From: a virus
Direction: 5' to 3' (one strand)
Length of the DNA stretch: 27,065 nucleotides
Virus record (IMG/VR): IMGVR_UViG_3300005584_000030
Location: 1 to 27,065 of that record
The stretch's first letter is position 1; each line of letters opens with the position of its first letter. The notes beneath the pieces were generated by a model. The model was not told the origin of the DNA and did not search any database. It was given only the letters and a program-made list of their open reading frames with translations. Position numbers and translations under genes: made by a program. Below are positions 576 to 26,068 of the stretch, piece by piece.

Positions 576-1211
576 ATGATTATAGGTATTACAGGGTTTA
601 TTGGTAGCGGCAAAGACACTATTGCTGACTATCTAACTACATTTCACGGATATAAACGAATTAGTTTTGCAGGCACTCTTAAGGATGCTTGTGCTTCTGT
701 GTTTGGATGGGACCGCGATCTGCTAGAAGGTACTACAAAATCTAGTAGAGAATGGCGTGAGCAAGTAGATCCATGGTGGAGTGAACGATTGGGTATACCT
801 GAACTTACTCCTAGATGGGTGTTACAACAGTGGGGCACAGAGGTATGTCGTGAAGGTTTTCATAATGACATCTGGGTAGCAAGCGTTGAAAATCAACTAC
901 GAAAAGCTAAGGATAATATTGTAATTACAGATTGTCGTTTTGATAATGAAGTAAATGCTATTAAAAATGCAGGTGGTATCACGATGAGAGTTGAGCGAGG
1001 AGAAAGACCCAAGTGGTATGATTCCGCGGTTAATTATAATAAAGGACCAAATAGTAATGCATTGTGGTCAATAAGTAAATCAAAATTAGACAGACTGAAA
1101 GTACATGCAAGTGAATATAGTAGCGTGGGTCTAGACTATGATTTCTATATAGATAATAATGATACCATTGACAAATTACATAAACAAATAGAAGATTTAA
1201 TCAACTTGTAA
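576..1211 (+). CDS. 1: Deoxynucleoside monophosphate kinase (T4 gp1-like)
   Basis: A 211-residue kinase that phosphorylates dNMPs to dNDPs for phage DNA synthesis. A P-loop, GFIGSGKDT, is at residues 7-15 with lysine at 13. The mid region (TPRWVLQQWGTEVCREGF) and the strand-Asp segment IVITDCRFDNEV are typical of phage dNMP kinases, and the length is close to that of T4 gp1 (about 240). The ATG at 576 is preceded by AGGAG at 562-566 with nine-base spacing. The gene has its own early-type promoter and a hairpin that could silence read-through translation. It converges with the minus-strand zinc protein and their 3' ends overlap by 15 bases. Confident in family; the exact nucleotide specificity cannot be told. 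Confidence 0.93.
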   Translation: MIIGITGFIGSGKDTIADYLTTFHGYKRISFAGTLKDACASVFGWDRDLLEGTTKSSREWREQVDPWWSERLGIPELTPRWVLQQWGTEVCREGFHNDIWVASVENQLRKAKDNIVITDCRFDNEVNAIKNAGGITMRVERGERPKWYDSAVNYNKGPNSNALWSISKSKLDRLKVHASEYSSVGLDYDFYIDNNDTIDKLHKQIEDLINL

Positions 1212-1538
1212 ATCTCCTCTTTTCCAATTTACCTGAGTCTTTTTCACAACTTCAACACAATTTAAGCATATGGTTCTTAAATTAGAAAAATTAACATTTT
1301 CTAAGCTACCATCTATATGATAGACAGTGGTCTGACTAGGATACAGACTTTTAAAACCACATAAGTCACATGTGGTTTTTTTCTTATATGAACTTTTTTG
1401 CCAAGTAGCTGTTCTTGGTTTTAACTTCTTTTTCTTTCTACCGCATTCATCACAACTACCGCGATAATGTGTAGTATCATTGCGTTTGTAGTTTATCGCA
1501 CAATAATTCTTATTACAAATTTTACACACAGGTCTCAT
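1197..1538 (-). CDS. HNH-like zinc-binding phage protein
   Basis: A 113-residue basic protein with paired cysteines: CKIC near residue 5, CDECGRK, then CDLCGF and a closing CLNC. The last pair flanks YHIDG...NLRTIC, which has the spacing of an HNH nuclease core (His-Asn-Asn plus zinc-ribbon cysteines). I recognise this as a widespread T4-type phage family, but nuclease activity is unproven and the first catalytic histidine is uncertain. It is the only minus-strand gene in this part. The ATG at 1538 is chosen over an in-frame GTG at 1571, because the GTG lies inside a forward terminator hairpin and the ATG starts just before the first cysteine pair. There is no Shine-Dalgarno. A CTAAATA element lies exactly five bases before the ATG, suggesting leaderless expression. 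It could be a free-standing homing-type nuclease or a DNA-binding regulator. Confidence 0.8.
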   Translation of the reverse strand: MRPVCKICNKNYCAINYKRNDTTHYRGSCDECGRKKKKLKPRTATWQKSSYKKKTTCDLCGFKSLYPSQTTVYHIDGSLENVNFSNLRTICLNCVEVVKKTQVNWKRGDLQVD

Positions 1539-1550
1539 GTGTTTATTTAG
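1539..1550 (-). promoter_or_regulatory. Candidate late -10 element, CTAAATA five bases before ATG
   Basis: On the minus strand ACTAAATA is followed by AACAC and the ATG of the HNH-like gene. T4 late promoters (TATAAATA) start RNA about six bases after the element, here the A of the ATG. The same spacing recurs at 1601 and 20321. Confidence 0.4.
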
Positions 1551-1564
1551 TACAGAAACCTTCG

Positions 1565-1590
1565 AAGGCACGGTTATTCGTGCCTTTTTT
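1565..1590 (+). terminator. Rho-independent terminator, plus strand
   Basis: AAGGCACG (1565-1572) pairs perfectly with CGTGCCTT (1579-1586) around a six-base loop, and a run of six T ends at 1590. The T run is on the plus strand, so it stops transcription coming through the dNMP kinase and antisense to the HNH-like gene. It separates the early-type unit from the late sheath promoter just downstream. Confidence 0.85.
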
Positions 1591-12021: not shown

Positions 12022-15000
12022 ATGGCACAACAAAATATTGATTTTGGTTCTTTCCCAAATGATCCGGGGGCGGATGCGATAAGAACCGCTTTCGAAAAAG
12101 TACAACAAAATTTTACAGACTTATATACAACTACTATTTCGTCAGGTGTAACACAAGTTATTACAGGTCCTGGCCTTGGACAAAATAGACAGACCGGTAC
12201 TATAACGATATCTGCAAACATTCCCAATATTTCGATACAGACAAGTACGAACTTACGTATTGGAGTAGGGGTAGCATCGGGTAATACTGCTACTATTAGT
12301 AGTTGGGCTACACCGTTTGTAATAGATTTATCAAGTAATATAGCAACAGCAAATGCAACAATTGGTAATATAACAGTTGCTAATTTAAACGTAACAAATC
12401 GTGTCACATCAAGTTTAGTTCCCAGTATAGATGTAACATATAATTTAGGTAGTCCAACAAGACGTTGGAAAGATTTGTATCTAAGTGGAAACACAATTGA
12501 TCTGGGCGGTTCATTAATTTCTGCAACAGGTGGTGTTGTAAGTGTGCCGTCATTGACAGCAATAACAGCAATAACTTCACCAAGTGTAATTGCAACTAGC
12601 GTGGTGACTCCTACTATTACTATTGGTAATTTAAACATAACCAATAATGGTTACAATATTATAATGCCAGCACTACAAGTTGGTAATACTGTTTTAAATC
12701 CTAGTGGTCTTACTGTAAGTGGAAACGTAAATGCAGGTAATGTATCTGCCGGCTTTATTCAAGGAGAACTAACTACATCAAGTCAACCGGGTATTACAAC
12801 TGTTGGTATATTAGAAGGATTAACTGTCACTGGTGACATGACTACTGGTAATATGATTATTACTGGTAGTACTACAGTGGACGGTAATGTCTCTGTCACT
12901 GGTGCATTTAGTGCTCCTACTATTACCGGTAACGTTATTATCCCAGCCGGCTCATCATTACAAGCTCCGGGTTCAACCGGACAGATTACATTTAATGATG
13001 GTGGTAACTCTGCGGCGGTTCCCGGATTAACTTTTGATAAGACTAGTAATCTATTAAGTATTTCAGGTAATGTATCAGGTGGAAACTTAGTATCAACCGG
13101 TGCATTAAGTTTAACTAAAGATGCAAACATCGGCGGTAACGTTAAATCAGCTAATTTATTAACAGGTCGTGTTGAAGCGACCAGTATCATATCATCCGGT
13201 GGTAGTAATGTTGTATTAGATCCTGCAGGTACAGTAAGTGCTATTGGTAATATTAGTGGTGGCAATATATCAACCACCGGAACAGTTTCAGCTAACGTAA
13301 TAGGTGTCACTACATTAAATGCTAGTGGTAATGCAACTATTACAGGTAATGCAACGGTAGGCAATATATCAACCACCGGAACAGCTAGTGTTGGATTACT
13401 ATCTAGCGGTAATGCAACTGTCACCGGTAATATATCAGCTGGTAATTTGTCATCTGATGGATTTGCTAGTATTGGCGGAACAATAACTGCTGGTAATTTA
13501 TCAACTGGTGGATTTGCTAGTGTTGGTAGTTTATTAACTAGCGGTACTGCTAACGTTGGATTATTAGTATCTACCGGTGGTGCCAATATAACAGGTACTG
13601 TTACAGCAGGGGCAATCAGTACTGGTAATTTATCTGCGGCTAATCTTACTACCGATGGCAATTTAACTGCTGCCAATGTTAGTGTTGGGCTTGGTACTAT
13701 TGCCGCAGGAAATATTAATACAACCGGTAGACATACTACAAACGAACTTGTTGTTAGTACTAATGCTAATATTCAAGGTACACATCGTGCATTGATAGGA
13801 TTTACTACAGGGACTCATACTGCTGGTAATTTCTTTACATCAGGTGAATCAAATGTTGGTAGTCACAAAGCAGGTAGTAGTATTACTACCGGATTACATA
13901 CTGCAAGCATATTACAAATTGATACTAATGCAACAATCACTGGTAACGGTAGTCTTGGTAATGCAAGTATAGTAGGATTATTAACCAGTCTTAATGCAAA
14001 TATTACCGGAACACACTCTGCAACTACTACAGTAACTAGAGGTACTCATACCGCAAATACATTAACGGTTAACACAAATGCTACCATCACCGGTAATAGT
14101 AGTCACGGTAATATAAACGTTCTTGGGTTACATACTACCGTAGACGCAAACGTAACCGGATTACATAAAGCCGCAACAAGCGAAACAGTAGGTACACATA
14201 CTGCACGTGATTTAAAAATTAACGCTGATGCTGAAATTACTGGTAATAGTACTCACGGTAATGCAAGTGTCATAGGTACATTAACTACTAATGATGCCAA
14301 TGTTACGGGAACTCACTCCTCAACTACTACTATAACTAGAGGTACGCATACCGCAAATACATTAAGTATTAATTTAAATGCATCAGTGGCCGGCACACAC
14401 ACTGTAGGGACTGCAGGTGCTAATGTTGTAATGACTGGCGGTAATTTAACAATGACTGGCAGACATACTACTACCAATGCAAACGTAACCGGCATACATT
14501 TTGTAGGTGATAGTTCTAGTAACGTTGTAATGACTGGTGGTAATTTAACAATGACCGGTCGACATACTACTAGTAATGCTAACGTCACTGGTACACATTA
14601 TGTAGGTAATTCTACTGCTTATACTAGTATGAGTGCAGGTAATCTTAATATGACCGGTACACACACAGCTGGTTATATTGTTATTGACAATGATAGTGAA
14701 ACTAAAGGCAAACATAAGGCATTAAACTTGCAAGTTACAAATAATGCTAACTTTGATGCAAGTATGTTTGTTACAAATGATGCTAACGTTGGTAGTATGA
14801 AAGTCAGAGGAGATCATACTGTAAACGGTAATGTTATTTCAGATAAATTTAGCGGTAACACTGCGACATTTGGTAGTACACCCGGGGCTGCCGGAACTAG
14901 TTTAACAGTTAACGGTGTATTGTCATTGCAAGGTAATGCAAGCATTGGTAATATTACTGCTATTAATAGTGTTACTGGTGGTATTATTTCTCTTACTGGA

Positions 15001-16611
15001 AATGCAACCGGTACTGCACTAGTAGCGGCTGGATTAGTACGTGTGGGCGGAAAACATTCAGTAACACAAGAAATTACAGTCGGGGTATCAGTCTCAGTAT
15101 CACAAGCTACTGCAGCCGGAGGTATAATAACATTAACATTCGCAGACCAAGGTATTGCTCCTTTCTATGTTGGACAAAAAATAGTATTAAAGAGTTTTGT
15201 ACCAATCGGATATAATTTAGAATATACTGTACTAACTTGTAACACAACTACAGTAACAATGGCAGGAACAAATGGTACTATTACAACACTGGGCACGGTA
15301 GAATCAAGCGGTAATGGTTTAGTAGTTAGTGGTAATCTTGTTGGTGGCAGTATGATTCTTGCCGGTAGCCACAATGTTAGTGGTAAAATCACTGGTCAAA
15401 ATGGATTGGATGTAACGTCCGGGGTAGCTAATTTCCAAGGTGGATTAAAATCATTAGATGGTACATTTACAGGTAAAGTAGACATTAACGGGAATACATC
15501 ACTGTATGCTAACGGTGATGTTGCTGGTAAAATATTTACTGCAACATTGTTTACTGGTAATGGTTCAAGTATAACTAATTTGAAGGGGGTAAATATTGAT
15601 AATAGCAGTATTGATGCTACTCTTAAATTAACTAACTTAGCAACTGCTGTTTCTACATTAAGTGTTGCAAGTGCTACTAGTTCAGGTAATATAACAACAG
15701 TTAACGGGTTACCTTCAGGTGTATATACTAATATTACTGGTGTCGGAACATTAGGTAGTTTAACATTGGGTGGTGCATTTAGCAGTAATAGTACTGTTAC
15801 TGCTACTAGCTTTAGTGGTGATGGTGCAAGTTTATCTAACGTAGTTGCAAAAAGTGTCGCAGCCGCAAATATTACCGGACAATCTGGTATGTGGAAATCA
15901 TCACTTCGCCCAGGCGCAACACGATTATATCGTTCCGAGGATAATAGCAATTATAATTTACAAAATTATTGGACAGGTACACATTGGTTCTTGCGTGGAT
16001 ATCAAGGTGATGTAGATGCTACATCAACTACAACTATACATGCTGAGGTGAGAGTAGGTTATGCTGACAGTGCAGGTAGTGCGGGTAGTGCGGGTAGTGT
16101 ACCGTGGACTGGTGTGACAGGTAAACCTACTTCTTTAAGTTCATTTACGAATGAGCCAGGATATTTAACAACACAGTATACTCCACCACAAGCAATTGGC
16201 ACCGGTGCTAGTGTTCAATTTAGTTCTTTGGGCATTGGTACCGCACCCGTGTCAGCCGGACAAATTCATGCTACTAACAATATTACTGCGTATTATTCTG
16301 ATGACAGATTAAAAACTAAACTTGGTAATATTGAAAATGCACTAGATAAGATTGATGAACTAAGTGGTTTCTATTATGAAGAAAATGAATTAGCAGAGTC
16401 ATTAGGGTATACTAAACATCGTCAAGTTGGTGTGTCCGCACAACAAGTTCAAACACAACTTCCTGATTGTGACATAGTTGTACCCGCACCAATTGACAAT
16501 AAATACTGGACTGTACATTATGAAAGATTAATTCCATTATTAATTGAAGGTATCAAAGAACTACGTGCAGAAGTTAAAGAAATAAAAAATACATTGGAAG
16601 GTAAAAAATGA
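12022..16611 (+). CDS. Long repetitive tail fibre with S74 self-cleaving chaperone domain
   Basis: A 1529-residue fibre, probably a receptor-binding or baseplate-attached trimer. The N terminus (FPNDPGADAIRTAFEKVQQN) is the attachment motif seen in many T4-type structural proteins. Residues about 100-1370 are Gly/Asn/Thr-rich beta repeats (units such as NATVTGNISAGNLS), including three 50-residue tandem copies and two 33-residue copies. The C-terminal 104 residues are a peptidase S74 intramolecular chaperone: YYSDDRLKTKLGNIENALDK, then GVSAQQVQ and WTVHYERLIPLLIEGIKEL. The catalytic pair would be Ser1426 and Lys1431, with release of the C-terminal domain after trimer folding. It is followed by an overlapping endolysin gene (ATGA). 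Very confident for the fibre/S74 assignment; the receptor is unknown. Confidence 0.95.
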   Translation: MAQQNIDFGSFPNDPGADAIRTAFEKVQQNFTDLYTTTISSGVTQVITGPGLGQNRQTGTITISANIPNISIQTSTNLRIGVGVASGNTATISSWATPFVIDLSSNIATANATIGNITVANLNVTNRVTSSLVPSIDVTYNLGSPTRRWKDLYLSGNTIDLGGSLISATGGVVSVPSLTAITAITSPSVIATSVVTPTITIGNLNITNNGYNIIMPALQVGNTVLNPSGLTVSGNVNAGNVSAGFIQGELTTSSQPGITTVGILEGLTVTGDMTTGNMIITGSTTVDGNVSVTGAFSAPTITGNVIIPAGSSLQAPGSTGQITFNDGGNSAAVPGLTFDKTSNLLSISGNVSGGNLVSTGALSLTKDANIGGNVKSANLLTGRVEATSIISSGGSNVVLDPAGTVSAIGNISGGNISTTGTVSANVIGVTTLNASGNATITGNATVGNISTTGTASVGLLSSGNATVTGNISAGNLSSDGFASIGGTITAGNLSTGGFASVGSLLTSGTANVGLLVSTGGANITGTVTAGAISTGNLSAANLTTDGNLTAANVSVGLGTIAAGNINTTGRHTTNELVVSTNANIQGTHRALIGFTTGTHTAGNFFTSGESNVGSHKAGSSITTGLHTASILQIDTNATITGNGSLGNASIVGLLTSLNANITGTHSATTTVTRGTHTANTLTVNTNATITGNSSHGNINVLGLHTTVDANVTGLHKAATSETVGTHTARDLKINADAEITGNSTHGNASVIGTLTTNDANVTGTHSSTTTITRGTHTANTLSINLNASVAGTHTVGTAGANVVMTGGNLTMTGRHTTTNANVTGIHFVGDSSSNVVMTGGNLTMTGRHTTSNANVTGTHYVGNSTAYTSMSAGNLNMTGTHTAGYIVIDNDSETKGKHKALNLQVTNNANFDASMFVTNDANVGSMKVRGDHTVNGNVISDKFSGNTATFGSTPGAAGTSLTVNGVLSLQGNASIGNITAINSVTGGIISLTGNATGTALVAAGLVRVGGKHSVTQEITVGVSVSVSQATAAGGIITLTFADQGIAPFYVGQKIVLKSFVPIGYNLEYTVLTCNTTTVTMAGTNGTITTLGTVESSGNGLVVSGNLVGGSMILAGSHNVSGKITGQNGLDVTSGVANFQGGLKSLDGTFTGKVDINGNTSLYANGDVAGKIFTATLFTGNGSSITNLKGVNIDNSSIDATLKLTNLATAVSTLSVASATSSGNITTVNGLPSGVYTNITGVGTLGSLTLGGAFSSNSTVTATSFSGDGASLSNVVAKSVAAANITGQSGMWKSSLRPGATRLYRSEDNSNYNLQNYWTGTHWFLRGYQGDVDATSTTTIHAEVRVGYADSAGSAGSAGSVPWTGVTGKPTSLSSFTNEPGYLTTQYTPPQAIGTGASVQFSSLGIGTAPVSAGQIHATNNITAYYSDDRLKTKLGNIENALDKIDELSGFYYEENELAESLGYTKHRQVGVSAQQVQTQLPDCDIVVPAPIDNKYWTVHYERLIPLLIEGIKELRAEVKEIKNTLEGKK
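13894..14343 (+). repeat. Three tandem 150-bp (50-residue) repeats in the fibre gene
   Basis: Units run 13894-14043, 14044-14193 and 14194-14343, and a fourth begins at 14344. Each has the pattern (T/L)HTA...N-A-x-I-T-G-N...NA(N)(I/V)TG(T/L)H...(T/V)(R/V)G. The middle unit reads THTANTLTVNTNATITGNSS at its start. The units are diverged at DNA level but keep exact length, which fits a beta-repeat shaft under selection for register. Confidence 0.85.
14425..14622 (+). repeat. Two tandem 99-bp (33-residue) repeats in the fibre gene
   Basis: 14425-14523 and 14524-14622 both encode VVMTGGNLTMTGRHTT(T/S)NAN followed by VTG(I/T)H(F/Y)VG. DNA identity is high, so this is a more recent duplication than the 150-bp array upstream. 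Confidence 0.85.
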
Positions 16612-21186: not shown

Positions 21187-21216
21187 TTGACAATTCAATG
21201 ATTACTATAGTATAAT
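21187..21216 (+). promoter_or_regulatory. Near-consensus sigma70 (early) promoter
   Basis: A perfect -35 TTGACA (21187-21192) and a perfect -10 TATAAT (21211-21216) are separated by 18 bases. It drives the operon 21222-25261. The ATG of the first gene is only five bases after the -10, so RNA would begin at or inside the start codon. The -10 context is shared with the dNMP kinase promoter. Confidence 0.85.
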
Positions 21217-21221
21217 ATGTT

Positions 21222-21728
21222 ATGCACACTGACATATATGGTAGACAAGTATTAGAAGAAATAGATATTTGTGTAGCCTACCTAAAAAATCCAAACTTGC
21301 AACTATATAATGGGCTTGTCAGTTCATCTATAGATTTTAGCGATGATTTAGAGTTAACAAACAAACCGGTTTTAGAAGTATACAAACCCTTAGATATATC
21401 AATTACAGAATTTGACTGTCATTTGCATGACAATTGGTATATGCCCGATGAATATAAAACTTTAGATATTGCTAAATGGGTATTAGATTTGTGTGTGACA
21501 GAACATGAATTACAACGTGTTGGGCAAGAATTAATAATGTTTCAAGAACGGAACATGTTTTCATTGTTGCGATATTGTAAGTATCTAGTAGATACTATGA
21601 AAACACACAGTGTCGTTTGGGGAGTAGGTAGGGGAAGTAGCGTAAGTAGTTATGTTCTTTACCTATTAGGTATACATAGGATAAATAGTATTCAATATGA
21701 TTTATCCATAGATGAGTTTTTAAAATAA
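21222..21728 (+). CDS. DnaE-like DNA polymerase III alpha palm fragment without catalytic motif
   Basis: A 168-residue protein whose residues about 93-168 match the C-family polymerase (DnaE) segment just before the active-site aspartates. EHELQRVGQELIMFQERNMF parallels the DnaE helix before the palm. WGVGRGSSVSSYVLYLLGIH parallels GPGRGSAAGSLVAYALGIT, and INSIQYDLSIDEFLK parallels DPLKYGLLFERFLN. The protein stops exactly where DnaE would continue into PDxDxDF, so two of three catalytic Asp are absent and it cannot polymerise DNA alone. No N-terminal PHP domain. It could be a decoy, a regulator of host Pol III or a domain that acts in trans. It is first in the early operon that also encodes the clamp loader. 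The similarity is by eye but strong. Confidence 0.8.
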   Translation: MHTDIYGRQVLEEIDICVAYLKNPNLQLYNGLVSSSIDFSDDLELTNKPVLEVYKPLDISITEFDCHLHDNWYMPDEYKTLDIAKWVLDLCVTEHELQRVGQELIMFQERNMFSLLRYCKYLVDTMKTHSVVWGVGRGSSVSSYVLYLLGIHRINSIQYDLSIDEFLK

Positions 21729-21737
21729 GGAGTACAT

Positions 21738-22031
21738 ATGGTTAATAAATCAGCACTAGGAAAATCAATAGATATGGCGTCAATTGCAAGACGCAATGAA
21801 AAAGTAAGAGCCGTCGGTAATATGAATGTTAATGCCCGAGGAGATATTCTAAATAGCAACAATGAAGTAATTACTGATGCTACACAACGGGTTAGACGAA
21901 AATATAATCAGACTGTAATTAATCAGGGCACAAATATCCCAATCGGAGAACATGTACCTATACCCCCAGATGATAGCCTCACTGAGGAAGAAAAAGAATT
22001 ATTTAAAGATGATGAGGATGTAGTAAAGTGA
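21738..22031 (+). CDS. Small disordered phage protein, function unknown
   Basis: A 97-residue protein: a basic, polar N-terminal half (SIARRNEKVRAVGNMNVNAR) and an acidic C-terminal tail (SLTEEEKELFKDDEDVVK). No fold can be assigned and most of it looks disordered. It has a strong Shine-Dalgarno, AAGGAG (21727-21732), five bases before the ATG and overlapping the previous stop. Its stop TGA overlaps the GTG of the GroES-like gene (GTGA), so the two may be coupled. Perhaps an adaptor or RNA/DNA-binding early protein; unproven. Confidence 0.8.
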   Translation: MVNKSALGKSIDMASIARRNEKVRAVGNMNVNARGDILNSNNEVITDATQRVRRKYNQTVINQGTNIPIGEHVPIPPDDSLTEEEKELFKDDEDVVK

Positions 22032-22399
22032 AATTAGCATTCGAACCACACAAATTTAATAGAAGCCAATTCAAACCATTGGGGAAACATATAATTGTAG
22101 CAGATATGCAATTTAGTGAACGTATTACGTCTGCTGGAATTGTATTACTAAACGATGATATGCGTAGTGAAGGCATTAGACCACGTTGGGCACAAGTATA
22201 TGCATTAGGTCCTGAGTTTACGGATAATGACATTGAAGTGGGTAAATGGATTTATATTAGTCATGGACGTTGGACAAGGGGTATAGATATCGAAGATGAA
22301 ACGGGTAAACACACGTTGCGTAGAGTCGATTCTAATGATATACTTCTTATATCAGACGAACCCGTCAATGATTTAACAATGAGTGATAAAGGATTTTAA
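22028..22399 (+). CDS. 31: GroES-type co-chaperonin (gp31-like)
   Basis: A 123-residue co-chaperonin that would cap the host GroEL during folding of the major capsid protein, as T4 gp31 does. The core FKPLGKHIIVADM (15-27) matches the GroES PLxDxVxV start. SERITSAGIVLLNDD (30-44) fits the mobile loop with its hydrophobic anchor. The later segment WAQVYALGPEF...VGKWIYIS and the closing strand DILLISDE fit the GroES beta barrel. About 10 extra N-terminal and 10 extra C-terminal residues exceed the bacterial GroES length. It starts with GTG inside the previous stop; no better start exists before residue 27. Its place in an early operon suits preparation for capsid synthesis. Confidence 0.88.
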   Translation: MKLAFEPHKFNRSQFKPLGKHIIVADMQFSERITSAGIVLLNDDMRSEGIRPRWAQVYALGPEFTDNDIEVGKWIYISHGRWTRGIDIEDETGKHTLRRVDSNDILLISDEPVNDLTMSDKGF

Positions 22400-22400
22400 A

Positions 22401-23114
22401 ATGGCAACATGGAGTGTTAAACCCGAATGGAAGAAATCAATTATTGAGCGTAATTATTTTACCAAAGATAATAACAAACTAATGGTTGAAACTGGCTGGC
22501 GCTGGGGAGAATTTACTGTTTATACAGAAGATGAAAATCCACCTGATATCAGCTCCGGAGTAGATATCTATGACTGTGGATACGAAGCCGAACTAGTTGA
22601 AACTAGCGACGGTTGTTGGGAAGAACAGGACATGGATGAGTGTGATGAAGAAACACAGGCCTGGCTAGAAGAATTCTTTGAAGAAAATTCTTGGCTTGAC
22701 CTAGAAGAACATGGCTGGAGTCAGGATGAATGTGAAATGATTATCGATTGTGATTTGATTATTGAAAATATGGATACGGATGAAGTTGTGGATAGTTCTA
22801 GTGAGGCTGAGGCAAGAGCAATGCTAGAAAAACCCACACAGTGGCCTTGGGGCCCTGAACTTGCGTCTACTGTAGAAACTGCTAAGTGGCCGTTTGATAG
22901 ACCAAAAGAAGGTAAGAAGGAAGAAAAAACAATGACTAAGAAAAAAGTAAAAATAGAACTATACGCAGAAGCACCCTATGCGCAGGGTTATGCATCGGGT
23001 TTAGCAGGTGAGAAGTTTTTTAACCCCTATGCAGACATTGAAGATGCAGAAGCGGATGCAGATGATTATCAACGTGGATATGACAATGCTACAGAAACTA
23101 CAAAGGTTCAGTAA
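22401..23114 (+). CDS. Acidic phage protein with RMF-like C-terminal module
   Basis: A 237-residue, very acidic protein in two parts. The first 125 residues (VKPEWKKSIIERNYF, WRWGEFTVYTE, GCWEEQDMDECDEETQAWLE) form a compact Trp/Glu-rich domain of unknown function. The last 60 are a Lys-rich linker followed by AQGYASGLAGEKFFNPYADI and YQRGYDNAT, which repeats the ribosome modulation factor layout (GYxAGxxG...PY...W/Y-xxG-W/Y). An internal in-frame ATG at 22932 with AAGGA at 22917-22921 could make the 60-residue module alone. The ATG at 22401 is preferred to a GTG at 22383, as AAAGGA (22388-22393) is well placed. Ribosome binding is a hypothesis. Confidence 0.82.
   Translation: MATWSVKPEWKKSIIERNYFTKDNNKLMVETGWRWGEFTVYTEDENPPDISSGVDIYDCGYEAELVETSDGCWEEQDMDECDEETQAWLEEFFEENSWLDLEEHGWSQDECEMIIDCDLIIENMDTDEVVDSSSEAEARAMLEKPTQWPWGPELASTVETAKWPFDRPKEGKKEEKTMTKKKVKIELYAEAPYAQGYASGLAGEKFFNPYADIEDAEADADDYQRGYDNATETTKVQ
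22932..23114 (+). CDS. Possible internal-start product: 60-residue RMF-like protein
   Basis: In-frame ATG at 22932 with AAGGA ten bases upstream. The product begins MTKKKVKIELYAEAPY, contains the whole GYxxGLxG...NPY...GY module and is close to the size of E. coli RMF (55 residues). The start sits at the junction between the acidic domain and the module, where a separate translation start would make sense. It may equally be just part of the longer protein. Confidence 0.35.
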   Translation: MTKKKVKIELYAEAPYAQGYASGLAGEKFFNPYADIEDAEADADDYQRGYDNATETTKVQ

Positions 23115-23386
23115 TGAGATGGTTAAAAAGTAAATTACGTAGTTGGATCTTTGAAGAAGATACGGTAGAGCGATCCAATCGTGTAGTATCAATTATAGAT
23201 AGAGATATTGACAATCATGGTATGAATTTTACCATTATGAATGCAGTTGGTGGCTATGTTATGCAATATAGTCAGTATGATGAAAAGAATGACAGAAGTG
23301 ACCGTAGATTGCATATTATCAACAGTGAGCAAGACTTAGGTCAAAGTATTGCACACATTATAACTTATGAAATGTTAAGGAAATAA
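23114..23386 (+). CDS. Small phage protein, function unknown
   Basis: A 90-residue protein. The basic N terminus (MRWLKSKLRSWIFEED) could be an amphipathic helix. The rest is an alpha/beta domain (NFTIMNAVGGYVMQYSQYDE, then RRLHIINSEQDLGQSIAHII) of a type I associate with conserved T4-like small proteins. Its ATG overlaps the previous stop (TAATG), and the BI-1 gene starts one base after its stop, so it is tightly coupled in the early operon. No function recognised. Confidence 0.8.
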   Translation: MRWLKSKLRSWIFEEDTVERSNRVVSIIDRDIDNHGMNFTIMNAVGGYVMQYSQYDEKNDRSDRRLHIINSEQDLGQSIAHIITYEMLRK

Positions 23387-23387
23387 A

Positions 23388-24074
23388 ATGATTTATGAAA
23401 ATGTATACACAACTACATACCGTTCAGCGGAAGAAATTAACAATGCAATGGGTCGTGTCTATGGACATATGAGCCTAGCAGTTGTTATGTCAATGCTGGT
23501 TAGTTACTGGGTGGGAACTACCCCGGAATTGTTGCAATTCTTTTTCACAGGTGTGACTAAATGGATTGTGATTTTTGCCCCGCTTGTTGCAATATTTGGT
23601 ATTTCTGCGGTACTGGCTAATGATCCTAGTAAAAGCGTAGCACAATTATGTTTACATGGTTTTGCGGCATTGATGGGATTAAGTTTTGCTACTATCTTTG
23701 CAATATTCACTATGGGAAGTATTGTATCGGCATTTATGGGTGCGGCAATATTGTTTGGTGTTATGAGTTTTTATGGATACTTTACCAAACGTAGTTTAGA
23801 TAGTCTAGGCAAGTTTATGTTCGTTGGATTGATTGCAATTGTAATTGCTAGTATCGTTAACATCTTTATTGGCAGCACTGTAATGCAAATGGTAATCTCT
23901 GCAATAGCTATCATTATCTTTTTAGGATTGACAGCGTATGATACACAAAAGATTCGTGAAGAATTAAGTGTAGATGCTACTCCGGTCGCAGAAGTTCGAG
24001 GTGCATTAACTTTGTATATGGATTTTATTAACTTGTTTATTAACTTGTTACAACTTTTTGGTGATAGAAAATAA
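23388..24074 (+). CDS. Bax inhibitor-1 / YccA-family membrane protein
   Basis: A 228-residue polytopic inner-membrane protein with seven hydrophobic segments: about 28-44, 58-77, 86-106, 111-131, 141-161, 165-184 and 207-224. GLTAYDTQKIREE (180-192) and LTLYMDFINLFINLLQLFG (207-225) are the BI-1 (TMBIM) family signature. The two aspartates that form the pH-sensing pair in bacterial BI-1 (B. subtilis YetJ) are kept as Asp185 and Asp212. Bacterial relatives act as calcium leak channels or, like YccA, modulate the FtsH protease. A phage copy may protect the host membrane or FtsH substrates during infection; that is inference. Its stop overlaps the clamp loader start. Confidence 0.92.
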   Translation: MIYENVYTTTYRSAEEINNAMGRVYGHMSLAVVMSMLVSYWVGTTPELLQFFFTGVTKWIVIFAPLVAIFGISAVLANDPSKSVAQLCLHGFAALMGLSFATIFAIFTMGSIVSAFMGAAILFGVMSFYGYFTKRSLDSLGKFMFVGLIAIVIASIVNIFIGSTVMQMVISAIAIIIFLGLTAYDTQKIREELSVDATPVAEVRGALTLYMDFINLFINLLQLFGDRK

Positions 24075-24997
24075 TGAAGAACAATCTTTGGGTAGAAAAG
24101 TATCGCCCAAACACAGTAGAAGATTATGTGTTTGTTGATAGTAGACAACGTGAACAAGTAGTAGGTTGGATTAAAGATGAGTCTATTCCGCATCTATTAT
24201 TGAGCGGTGACCCGGGTACTGGTAAAACTACACTAGCCAAAGTATTGATACATGAACTTGGTATTAACGAATATGACGTATTAGAAATCAATGCTAGTCG
24301 AGAGAATAGTGTTGATATAGTGCGTGACCGTATTGTTGGTTTCGTGCAGACAATGCCTTTTGGTAAATTCAAAGTTGTATTATTGGACGAGGCAGATTAT
24401 CTAACTCCAGCAGGTCAGGCAGCATTGCGTAATGATATGGAAGCATATCATATGACTGCACGTTTTATTCTAACATGTAACTATGGTCATAGAATTATAC
24501 CAGCACTTAAGAGCAGATGCCATGAAGTTCACATAAGTAAAACGGATAAGACAGAATTTACAGCACGTGCGGCTACAGTACTAGTTAATGAGAATGTAGA
24601 GTTTGATTTAGATATACTAGATACATATGTAGGTGCTACGTATCCTGATTTACGTAAGTGTTTAAATCAACTTCAAGTAAATAGTAGTACAGGCAAATTA
24701 TTGCCACCGTTAAGTGCTAGTAATAGCGAAGATGGATTATTAGTAGAAGCTACACAATTGTTCAAGTCTGGTAAAATACTTGAAGGTCGTCAACAACTAA
24801 TGCAATATCTAAGTTTGAATCCAGCAAGAGTAGAAGATATCTATCGCTGGATGTACAATAATTTAGATTTGTGGGGTAAGACAAATGAGAAACGTGATGC
24901 TAGTATCATTATAATTCGTAATGGGTTAGCTAATCTAAGTTTAGTAGGTATACCCGAGATTAACTTAGCGGCTACAATGGTAGAATTGACAAGTTAA
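24074..24997 (+). CDS. 44: Sliding clamp loader ATPase (gp44-like)
   Basis: A 307-residue AAA+ subunit that loads the phage sliding clamp onto primer-template DNA. The N terminus LWVEKYRPNTVEDYV is the clamp-loader signature. Walker A GDPGTGKTT is at 45-53, Walker B VVLLDEAD at 101-108, sensor 1 TCN at 134-136, and SRC with arginine finger Arg148 at 147-149. The length is close to T4 gp44 (319). The T4 partner gp62 is not visible next to it; the following 84-residue gene is too short for it. The start overlaps the previous stop (TAATG). Confidence 0.95.
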   Translation: MKNNLWVEKYRPNTVEDYVFVDSRQREQVVGWIKDESIPHLLLSGDPGTGKTTLAKVLIHELGINEYDVLEINASRENSVDIVRDRIVGFVQTMPFGKFKVVLLDEADYLTPAGQAALRNDMEAYHMTARFILTCNYGHRIIPALKSRCHEVHISKTDKTEFTARAATVLVNENVEFDLDILDTYVGATYPDLRKCLNQLQVNSSTGKLLPPLSASNSEDGLLVEATQLFKSGKILEGRQQLMQYLSLNPARVEDIYRWMYNNLDLWGKTNEKRDASIIIIRNGLANLSLVGIPEINLAATMVELTS

Positions 24998-25294: not shown

Positions 25295-26068
25295 TTAATT
25301 GTACAAGTTTAGTACATGCTCAATAATTTTATGTCGTTGAACATCTTTTAGTTCAAACTTACATAACTGCAATCCTGGTATCACCCCCTTCCCCAATCGA
25401 TTTTGTAGGTCTAGTAGCCCATTGTCGGCTGTTTTTCTATCGGCTTGTTCAATGTCGCCAGTAATTACAATCTTACTACCAACGCCGATTCTAGTCATAA
25501 TCATTTTGAGTTGACCAGGTGTTGCATTTTGAGCCTCATCTAATACGATATAGCTATGTTTAAAGTTTCGACCTCGACAGAATGCTAGGGGTGCAATTTC
25601 AACTATTTGTTCTTCTAGCATGTGGGCGATTTCCCGTACCGTATAATACTCTCTTAAAACGTCAAGCAATGGTCTCGTCCACGGTTCCATTTTCTGATTT
25701 AAATCACCGGGTAAAAATCCATGCTTCTCATCATCAACTCCAATTGCAGGTCTAGTAAGAATAATACGGTCAACTTCTCTGGCTTTTAGGCTTTTGATAG
25801 CAGCCTGCATTGCCAGATAGGTTTTACCTGTACCCGCTGGACCACTGACCACAACAATATCTGTCTCTTGGTCTAATAATCCTAGTATGTATTTTTCTTG
25901 ATTTACTGACTTAGGTACTAATTGAATAGGTCTATTATTCAGTTTTACCTTAGTTTGGTCAAAGTTGATTGTTTTTGATTCATGTGTGTAAAATGTCTGT
26001 GTGTCTTTTTTTGCGTGTGCGTATCTTGTGTCTTGTTCACGTAATGCGCTAGTTTTGCGTTTGCTCAA
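25295..26068 (-). CDS. phoH: PhoH-like ATPase
   Basis: A 257-residue PhoH-family P-loop ATPase. Walker A SGPAGTGKT (75-83), the family motif GFLPGDLNQKM (117-127), Walker B YIVLDEAQN (173-181) and VITGDIEQAD (201-210) are all present. The family is very common in marine phages; related proteins are RNA-linked ATPases, and a phosphate-stress role is assumed from the name rather than shown. The start codon is TTG at 26068: no ATG occurs until residue 87, and a strong AAGGAG lies six bases upstream. It is transcribed against its neighbours as its own unit. The first 50 residues are a basic, disordered extension. Confidence 0.94.
   Translation of the reverse strand: MSKRKTSALREQDTRYAHAKKDTQTFYTHESKTINFDQTKVKLNNRPIQLVPKSVNQEKYILGLLDQETDIVVVSGPAGTGKTYLAMQAAIKSLKAREVDRIILTRPAIGVDDEKHGFLPGDLNQKMEPWTRPLLDVLREYYTVREIAHMLEEQIVEIAPLAFCRGRNFKHSYIVLDEAQNATPGQLKMIMTRIGVGSKIVITGDIEQADRKTADNGLLDLQNRLGKGVIPGLQLCKFELKDVQRHKIIEHVLNLYN

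Follow-up and report, generated by a model that had tools for sequence, protein, structure and literature searches.

A Bax inhibitor-1 family gene carried as an exchangeable cassette beside the clamp loader gene of T4-supergroup phages

The DNA analysed here (the window) is a virus contig of 27,065 bases from freshwater that carries genes for a tail sheath, a clamp loader and PhoH, and is a fragment of a T4-supergroup phage of the jumbo type. The cultured phages nearest to it in sheath and clamp loader (44–52%) are PA5oct, Paride and MIJ3 of Pseudomonas, Atu_ph07 of Agrobacterium and Phosso of Sinorhizobium, all of them jumbo phages. A gene of the Bax inhibitor-1 (BI-1) family lies in the window immediately 5' of the clamp loader gene. 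The features of this region are as follows.

21187–21216, plus strand: sigma-70 promoter that matches the consensus perfectly (TTGACA-18-TATAAT), just ahead of the operon's first ORF
21222–21728, plus strand: DNA polymerase III alpha-related ORF of 168 aa, first of the operon (PF07733, phrog_11127)
22028–22399, plus strand: GroES-like / head-morphogenesis co-chaperone ORF (phrog_931, phrog_3188)
23114–23386, plus strand: preceding ORF 'up90', 90 aa, with no assigned function; left edge of the slot
23377–23381, plus strand: AAGGA ribosome-binding site read from the sequence, 6 nt upstream of BI-1 and inside the final codons of up90
23388–24074, plus strand: BI-1 (PF01027) gene, 228 aa with seven predicted transmembrane (TM) helices; ATG at 23388, stop TAA at 24072–24074
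23940–23942, plus strand: codon for Asp185, aligned with the pH sensor Asp171 of YetJ (HMMER and MAFFT alignments)
24021–24023, plus strand: codon for Asp212, aligned with the pore residue and pH sensor Asp195 of YetJ (HMMER and MAFFT alignments)
24074–24997, plus strand: clamp loader large subunit, T4 gp44-like (phrog_168, E=1.8e-71); right edge of the slot
25295–26068, minus strand: PhoH-like ATPase, facing the operon (PF02562, E=2.9e-68)

A first-pass annotation, made from the sequence alone, had described the gene as part of a replication/chaperone operon in which it shares a TAATG overlap with the clamp loader. The operon description holds because the neighbours are a polymerase III alpha fragment, a GroES-like ORF and the clamp loader, with PhoH on the opposite strand, and the overlap is as described, the last base of the BI-1 stop codon being the first of the clamp loader ATG (24074). 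The polymerase III alpha-related ORF is one small NTPase-domain piece, and its place at the head of the operon is conserved in relatives. Elsewhere in the window, an antisense ORF of 124 aa (1197–1571, minus strand) with several CxxC motifs adjoins the tail sheath gene; it has a weak match to HNH endonucleases (phrog_10822, E 0.006) and is possibly a free-standing homing endonuclease. A repetitive fibre-like ORF of 1529 aa (12022–16611, plus strand) contains many repeats of the TGTH/TGNAT type.

Members of the BI-1 family are seven-helix membrane proteins whose cellular role is calcium/proton leak and membrane protection. The ORF at 23388–24074 is intact, and its residues 19–224 match the Bax1-I profile PF01027 with E=1.4e-53 and 182.2 bits (cut-off 34.1), covering positions 2–207 of the 207 in the profile; the family assignment made in the first-pass annotation is thus far beyond chance. 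The closest solved relative is YetJ of Bacillus subtilis (PDB search, E=2.8e-10). An AlphaFold2 model computed from 49 aligned phage and bacterial sequences has seven long helices (pLDDT 85, pTM 0.82), and its sole strong match in the PDB is again YetJ (Foldseek TM 0.80, E 3e-6). A VIA comparison with YetJ gives a Z score of 23.4 over 199 residues, the next unrelated chain scoring 6.3; across comparisons the predicted model has the seven-helix BI-1 fold with Z of 19–23 and an rmsd of 2.4–3.0 over 181–200 residues. As far as sequence can tell, the predicted seven passes also speak against a location outside the membrane, one of two outcomes that had been named as overturning the assignment. Judged from sequence, the ORF is best placed as a genuine member of the BI-1/TMBIM family, within its di-aspartyl YetJ/BI-1 branch and in a phage-borne clade.

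The two aspartates that define this branch had been recognised from the sequence as pH sensors, and both align exactly with Asp171 and Asp195 of YetJ. Asp185 and Asp212 are invariant in 94 of 94 close phage copies and in 80 of 80 bacterial homologues, so that loss of the pair from close homologues, which would have told against the assignment, was not seen. In a set of 80 viral copies at greater distance, Asp185 again never varies, and Asp212 is replaced by Asn in 21. The viral clade with Asn212 has BI-1 proteins 37–42% identical to that of the window, in the same gene order and beside a clamp loader that is 59–60% identical; copies of this clade near the clamp loader are found at loci L221–L247 (for example L246:3971–4651). 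A single clade formed by the window-type and Asn212 sequences is not rejected (AU p 0.19), which is compatible with one or two captures. The corresponding change in camelpox GAAP, D219N, reportedly abolishes the anti-apoptotic effect. Ca2+ flux through BsYetJ, TMBIM6 and TMBIM1 depends on the equivalent aspartates (PMC9206080), and in a viral channel the second of them belongs to the pore (PMC4416878).

The phage protein shares more than this pair with BsYetJ (PDB 4PGR/6NQ8), a di-aspartyl cation leak channel: the predicted seven-helix fold and a C-terminal DFINLFINLL motif are also common to both. However, overall identity is only about 23–26%, and the phage gene, unlike its Bacillus counterpart, is mobile. 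The closing latch of YetJ also requires Arg60 in TM2. By two aligners, this position is occupied by Asp79 in the window protein and by Asn79 in 87 of the 94 copies, and a conserved Lys82 lies three residues, or one turn, beyond it. Because Arg60 is replaced, the pH gating of YetJ may not apply to the phage protein, and we stop short of calling it an ortholog of YetJ; by its sensor pair it resembles YetJ and possibly works in a similar manner. The fold and the two aspartates fall short of proving conduction.

The label 'YccA-like' that the gene had first been given did not survive comparison. The phage protein scores 43.3 bits against the NCBIfam equivalog model for YccA (PRK10447.1), for which the cut-off is 353, and E. 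coli YccA, an FtsH modulator that according to the literature belongs to the same family and has the same seven-helix layout, aligns Glu and Ser at the two aspartate positions. On both counts the phage protein is not YccA. These results bear on the main rival to an ion-leak function, in which the protein would be a stable competitor that binds FtsH/HflKC as YccA does, and so spares SecY or phage membrane proteins from degradation. YccA is a substrate of FtsH, and the N-terminally shortened variant YccA11 blocks degradation of SecY (PMC7876416). The N-terminal tail of the phage copies is indeed about five residues shorter than that of alphaproteobacterial homologues (modes 25–27 versus 29–32). 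It is, however, as long as the tail of wild-type YccA, so the phage protein is no mimic of YccA11, and a truncated tail of that type was rejected. With the protein outside the YccA subfamily, its aspartate pair different from the residues of YccA, and an HflK/C-type Band_7 gene in only one of 15 phages, we consider such a decoy unlikely.

Related BI-1 genes are common in viral metagenomes. At least 579–597 related stretches are present in IMG/VR, and the best 80 of at least 579 are 84–100% identical to the BI-1 protein of the window. All close relatives are metagenomic contigs, mostly fragments, in which absence of the gene from the fragment is not absence from the phage; carriers include contigs of 250–367 kb. 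No family matching the phage protein was found in PHROGs, BI-1 is undetectable in PA5oct, Paride, MIJ3, Atu_ph07 and Phosso, and the only annotated cultured phage found to carry it is the Salicola jumbo phage SCTP-2 (440 kb). Its gp332 (L355:2084–2755; MF360958.1, 294582–295253), carries the annotation 'hypothetical' but matches PF01027 with 98.7 bits, a membership that had gone unrecognised. It is likewise phage-encoded but very distant from the window protein (30.6% identity over 32% of the query, tblastn E 0.6), and no clamp loader is annotated within the stretch read around it. Nine further matches in the phage collection searched, which are short unannotated fragments of 27–43% identity and possibly of bacterial origin, were left out. 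A literature search that covered sources outside subscription journals found no published account of a phage BI-1.

The closest cellular sequences are alphaproteobacterial: the best 80 matches among 84,980 bacterial and archaeal genomes are 41–47% identical and essentially all from Alphaproteobacteria, including MAG proteins of Rickettsiales and Rhodobacterales. A phylogeny against bacterial sequences, as had been proposed at the outset, resolves viral BI-1 into several clades among these alphaproteobacterial relatives. Phage and alphaproteobacterial proteins share the aspartate pair and an invariant Pro65, Gly97 and Asn158. In contrast, the bacterial proteins are chromosomally encoded, have a longer N-terminal tail and a longer loop between TM6 and TM7, and differ at residues 90, 118, 162 and 202. 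The studied alphaproteobacterial example is BrBI of Brucella, which is not among the MAG proteins compared here; BI-1 of Brucella is cytoprotective for the membrane (PMC7876416). Since the nearest cellular relatives among the best 80 are ordinary alphaproteobacterial BI-1 genes, the phage copy might simply replace or boost a housekeeping function that falls with shut-off of host genes, adding no new activity, an argument also made for poxvirus GAAP (PMC5451544). We regard this as quite doubtful, because the phage sequences form a clade of their own on a long stem, have a shorter loop between TM6 and TM7 and Glu rather than Ala at position 202, and lack a basic residue at the latch position.

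The first-pass annotation also hinted at a pairing with the clamp loader and proposed a survey of the gene next to gp44. We examined 80 relatives chosen by clamp loader similarity (78–86%), a choice independent of BI-1. The order polymerase III alpha fragment, p97, GroES-like ORF, small ORF, clamp loader and PhoH is kept in these relatives. BI-1 adjoins the clamp loader, exactly between it and the small ORF, in 23 of the 80 and is absent from that site in 56. At 50 of the 56 sites lacking BI-1 the small ORF overlaps the start of the clamp loader by 4 nt, forming a clean empty site, and at the remaining six the slot is filled by an endonuclease-like ORF of 210–230 aa (L332, L333, L279, L282, L348, L306). 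Five of these six ORFs are alike, and the two tested match an endonuclease family (phrog_15137, E 3e-5 and 3e-6); the sixth has similarity to homing endonucleases (phrog_314, E=1e-6). A homing-type cassette should leave clean empty sites and share its slot with endonucleases in relatives, and sites of both kinds, the latter with endonuclease-like ORFs, are found here. The filled or empty state changes at least 16 times on the clamp loader tree, and one relative of 348,701 bases has no BI-1 at all. The gene is therefore an accessory cassette in a recurrent slot, repeatedly gained and lost, which is the new aspect of this finding. Given its many gains, losses and exchanges, BI-1 seems to serve these phages as an optional tool.

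Coupling through TAATG is thus not functional pairing, since most relatives lack the gene at this site and it has other neighbours elsewhere. Most of the copies closest to the BI-1 of the window are in other contexts, among them a MazG-like gene, a DNA ligase, an unknown ORF of 399 aa and ClpP. A general functional coupling of BI-1 and clamp loader was rejected on the 50 empty sites and these many contexts. Some phage loci with BI-1 also hold a ClpP protease and a PBP_like_2 phosphate-binding-type protein a few kb away (L023:1719–2309, L061:6962–7966).

The history of BI-1 differs from that of the clamp loader. In phages picked by BI-1 similarity, BI-1 is 85–89% identical to that of the window and the clamp loader 36–85%; where the clamp loader is only 36–60% identical, BI-1 is still 85% identical and lies in unrelated loci. 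Phages sharing the slot, with clamp loaders of 78–85% identity, have BI-1 proteins of 58–86%, mostly 58–82%, and two loci picked by BI-1 (L002 and L004) have BI-1 of 88–90%. An impression that no gene of the phage is better conserved than BI-1 (84–92% versus 36–85% for the clamp loader) was dropped because similarity to BI-1 had guided the choice of those loci, and statements on relative conservation rest instead on the set selected by clamp loader, in which BI-1 in the slot averages 71% and the clamp loader 79%; the discordance between the two genes persists. The clamp loader topology is rejected for BI-1 (AU p 0.003–0.01, protein). BI-1 is thus a cassette that moves horizontally among phages of the T4 supergroup, which are often jumbo phages. 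In the tree, copies found elsewhere form one clade (99/95) adjacent to the copies of the window, L002 and L004, which suggests that BI-1 may have spread outward from a slot copy like that of the window, although monophyly of the copies in the slot is not rejected (AU p 0.38).

Among BI-1 copies pS is 0.53–0.74, near saturation, and pN is 0.07–0.11, which indicates old exchange under strong purifying selection. A recent sweep was rejected on the same near-saturation of synonymous sites. The gene might owe its spread only to its position, as a selfish passenger of a slot targeted by homing endonucleases, which in T4-type phages co-convert flanking sequence (PMC2988022), and six relatives do hold endonuclease-like ORFs in the same slot. 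No endonuclease is fused to BI-1 or directly flanks it in the window. The constraint on the protein and the many copies outside the slot make this explanation very improbable.

A patchy, mobile and constrained gene swapped among distant phages has the pattern of a host-interaction gene. It might act as an anti-suicide or superinfection factor, countering abortive-infection effectors that depolarise the cell or excluding other phages at the inner membrane. BI-1/TMBIM genes are known from poxviruses (PMC6163359), and eukaryotic viruses use such genes against cell death; a PADLOC search gave no match, however, and no known defence partner lies nearby, and we rate this role as unlikely, level with that of an FtsH decoy. 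Structure matches of the phage protein in BFVD are proteins of cytomegalovirus and giant viruses. These, the US12 family of cytomegalovirus and poxvirus vGAAP, a cation channel (PMC4416878), are also virus-borne and share the fold, although their hosts are eukaryotic, identity in the structure matches is 10–24%, and the captures were presumably separate. By analogy, phages might have arrived independently at a 'viral Bax inhibitor' strategy that parallels the one in poxviruses and cytomegaloviruses, in which an ion leak blocks death or depolarisation and the gene spreads at homing-endonuclease slots among distant jumbo phages; this seems slightly less probable again.

The reading that we tentatively prefer, at somewhat less than even confidence, is that phage BI-1 is an ion-leak or homeostasis protein of the host membrane, made early, that keeps the host energised and intact for replication of a large phage. 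It draws on family membership, the fold as predicted, the aspartate pair, occupancy of the slot, and the observed mobility and purifying selection. Its first step would be production from an operon with a host-type promoter. A perfect sigma-70 consensus is expected 0.06 times per window and was found in six of 100 shuffles, and 22 of 70 relatives have a promoter score of at least 10 ahead of the same first ORF, against 40 of 500 random stretches, a weak conservation. The T4 late promoter TATAAATA has zero matches across the window. The promoter would weakly favour expression by host sigma-70, that is, early expression; we infer this timing from one promoter, weakly conserved in relatives. The protein would then insert into the host inner membrane with its seven helices and may act there as a proton-sensitive leak or buffer for cations (Ca2+/H+/K+), damping membrane stress, so that the cell might keep its energy supply and integrity until replication of a large phage is finished. 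Early expression, ion leak or conduction and the benefit to the infected cell are the parts that we infer. The broader idea of host modulation advanced in the first-pass annotation is retained to this extent, as the protein is a membrane protein in an early-type operon with a plausible action on the host, whereas the label 'YccA-like' and the pairing with the clamp loader are given up. Control of FtsH, an ion leak or an effect on the timing of lysis would be candidate roles.

Few membrane protein families are as widely shared as BI-1, yet its role in bacteria is poorly understood. A large clade of uncultured phages keeps a BI-1 gene under strong purifying selection despite repeated gain and loss, which provides natural pairs with and without the gene and suggests a defined benefit during infection. 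With this finding, the capture of death-suppressing TMBIM genes by viruses would reach beyond the viruses of eukaryotes to phages, and phage BI-1 offers a compact way into testing the role of BI-1 in bacteria.
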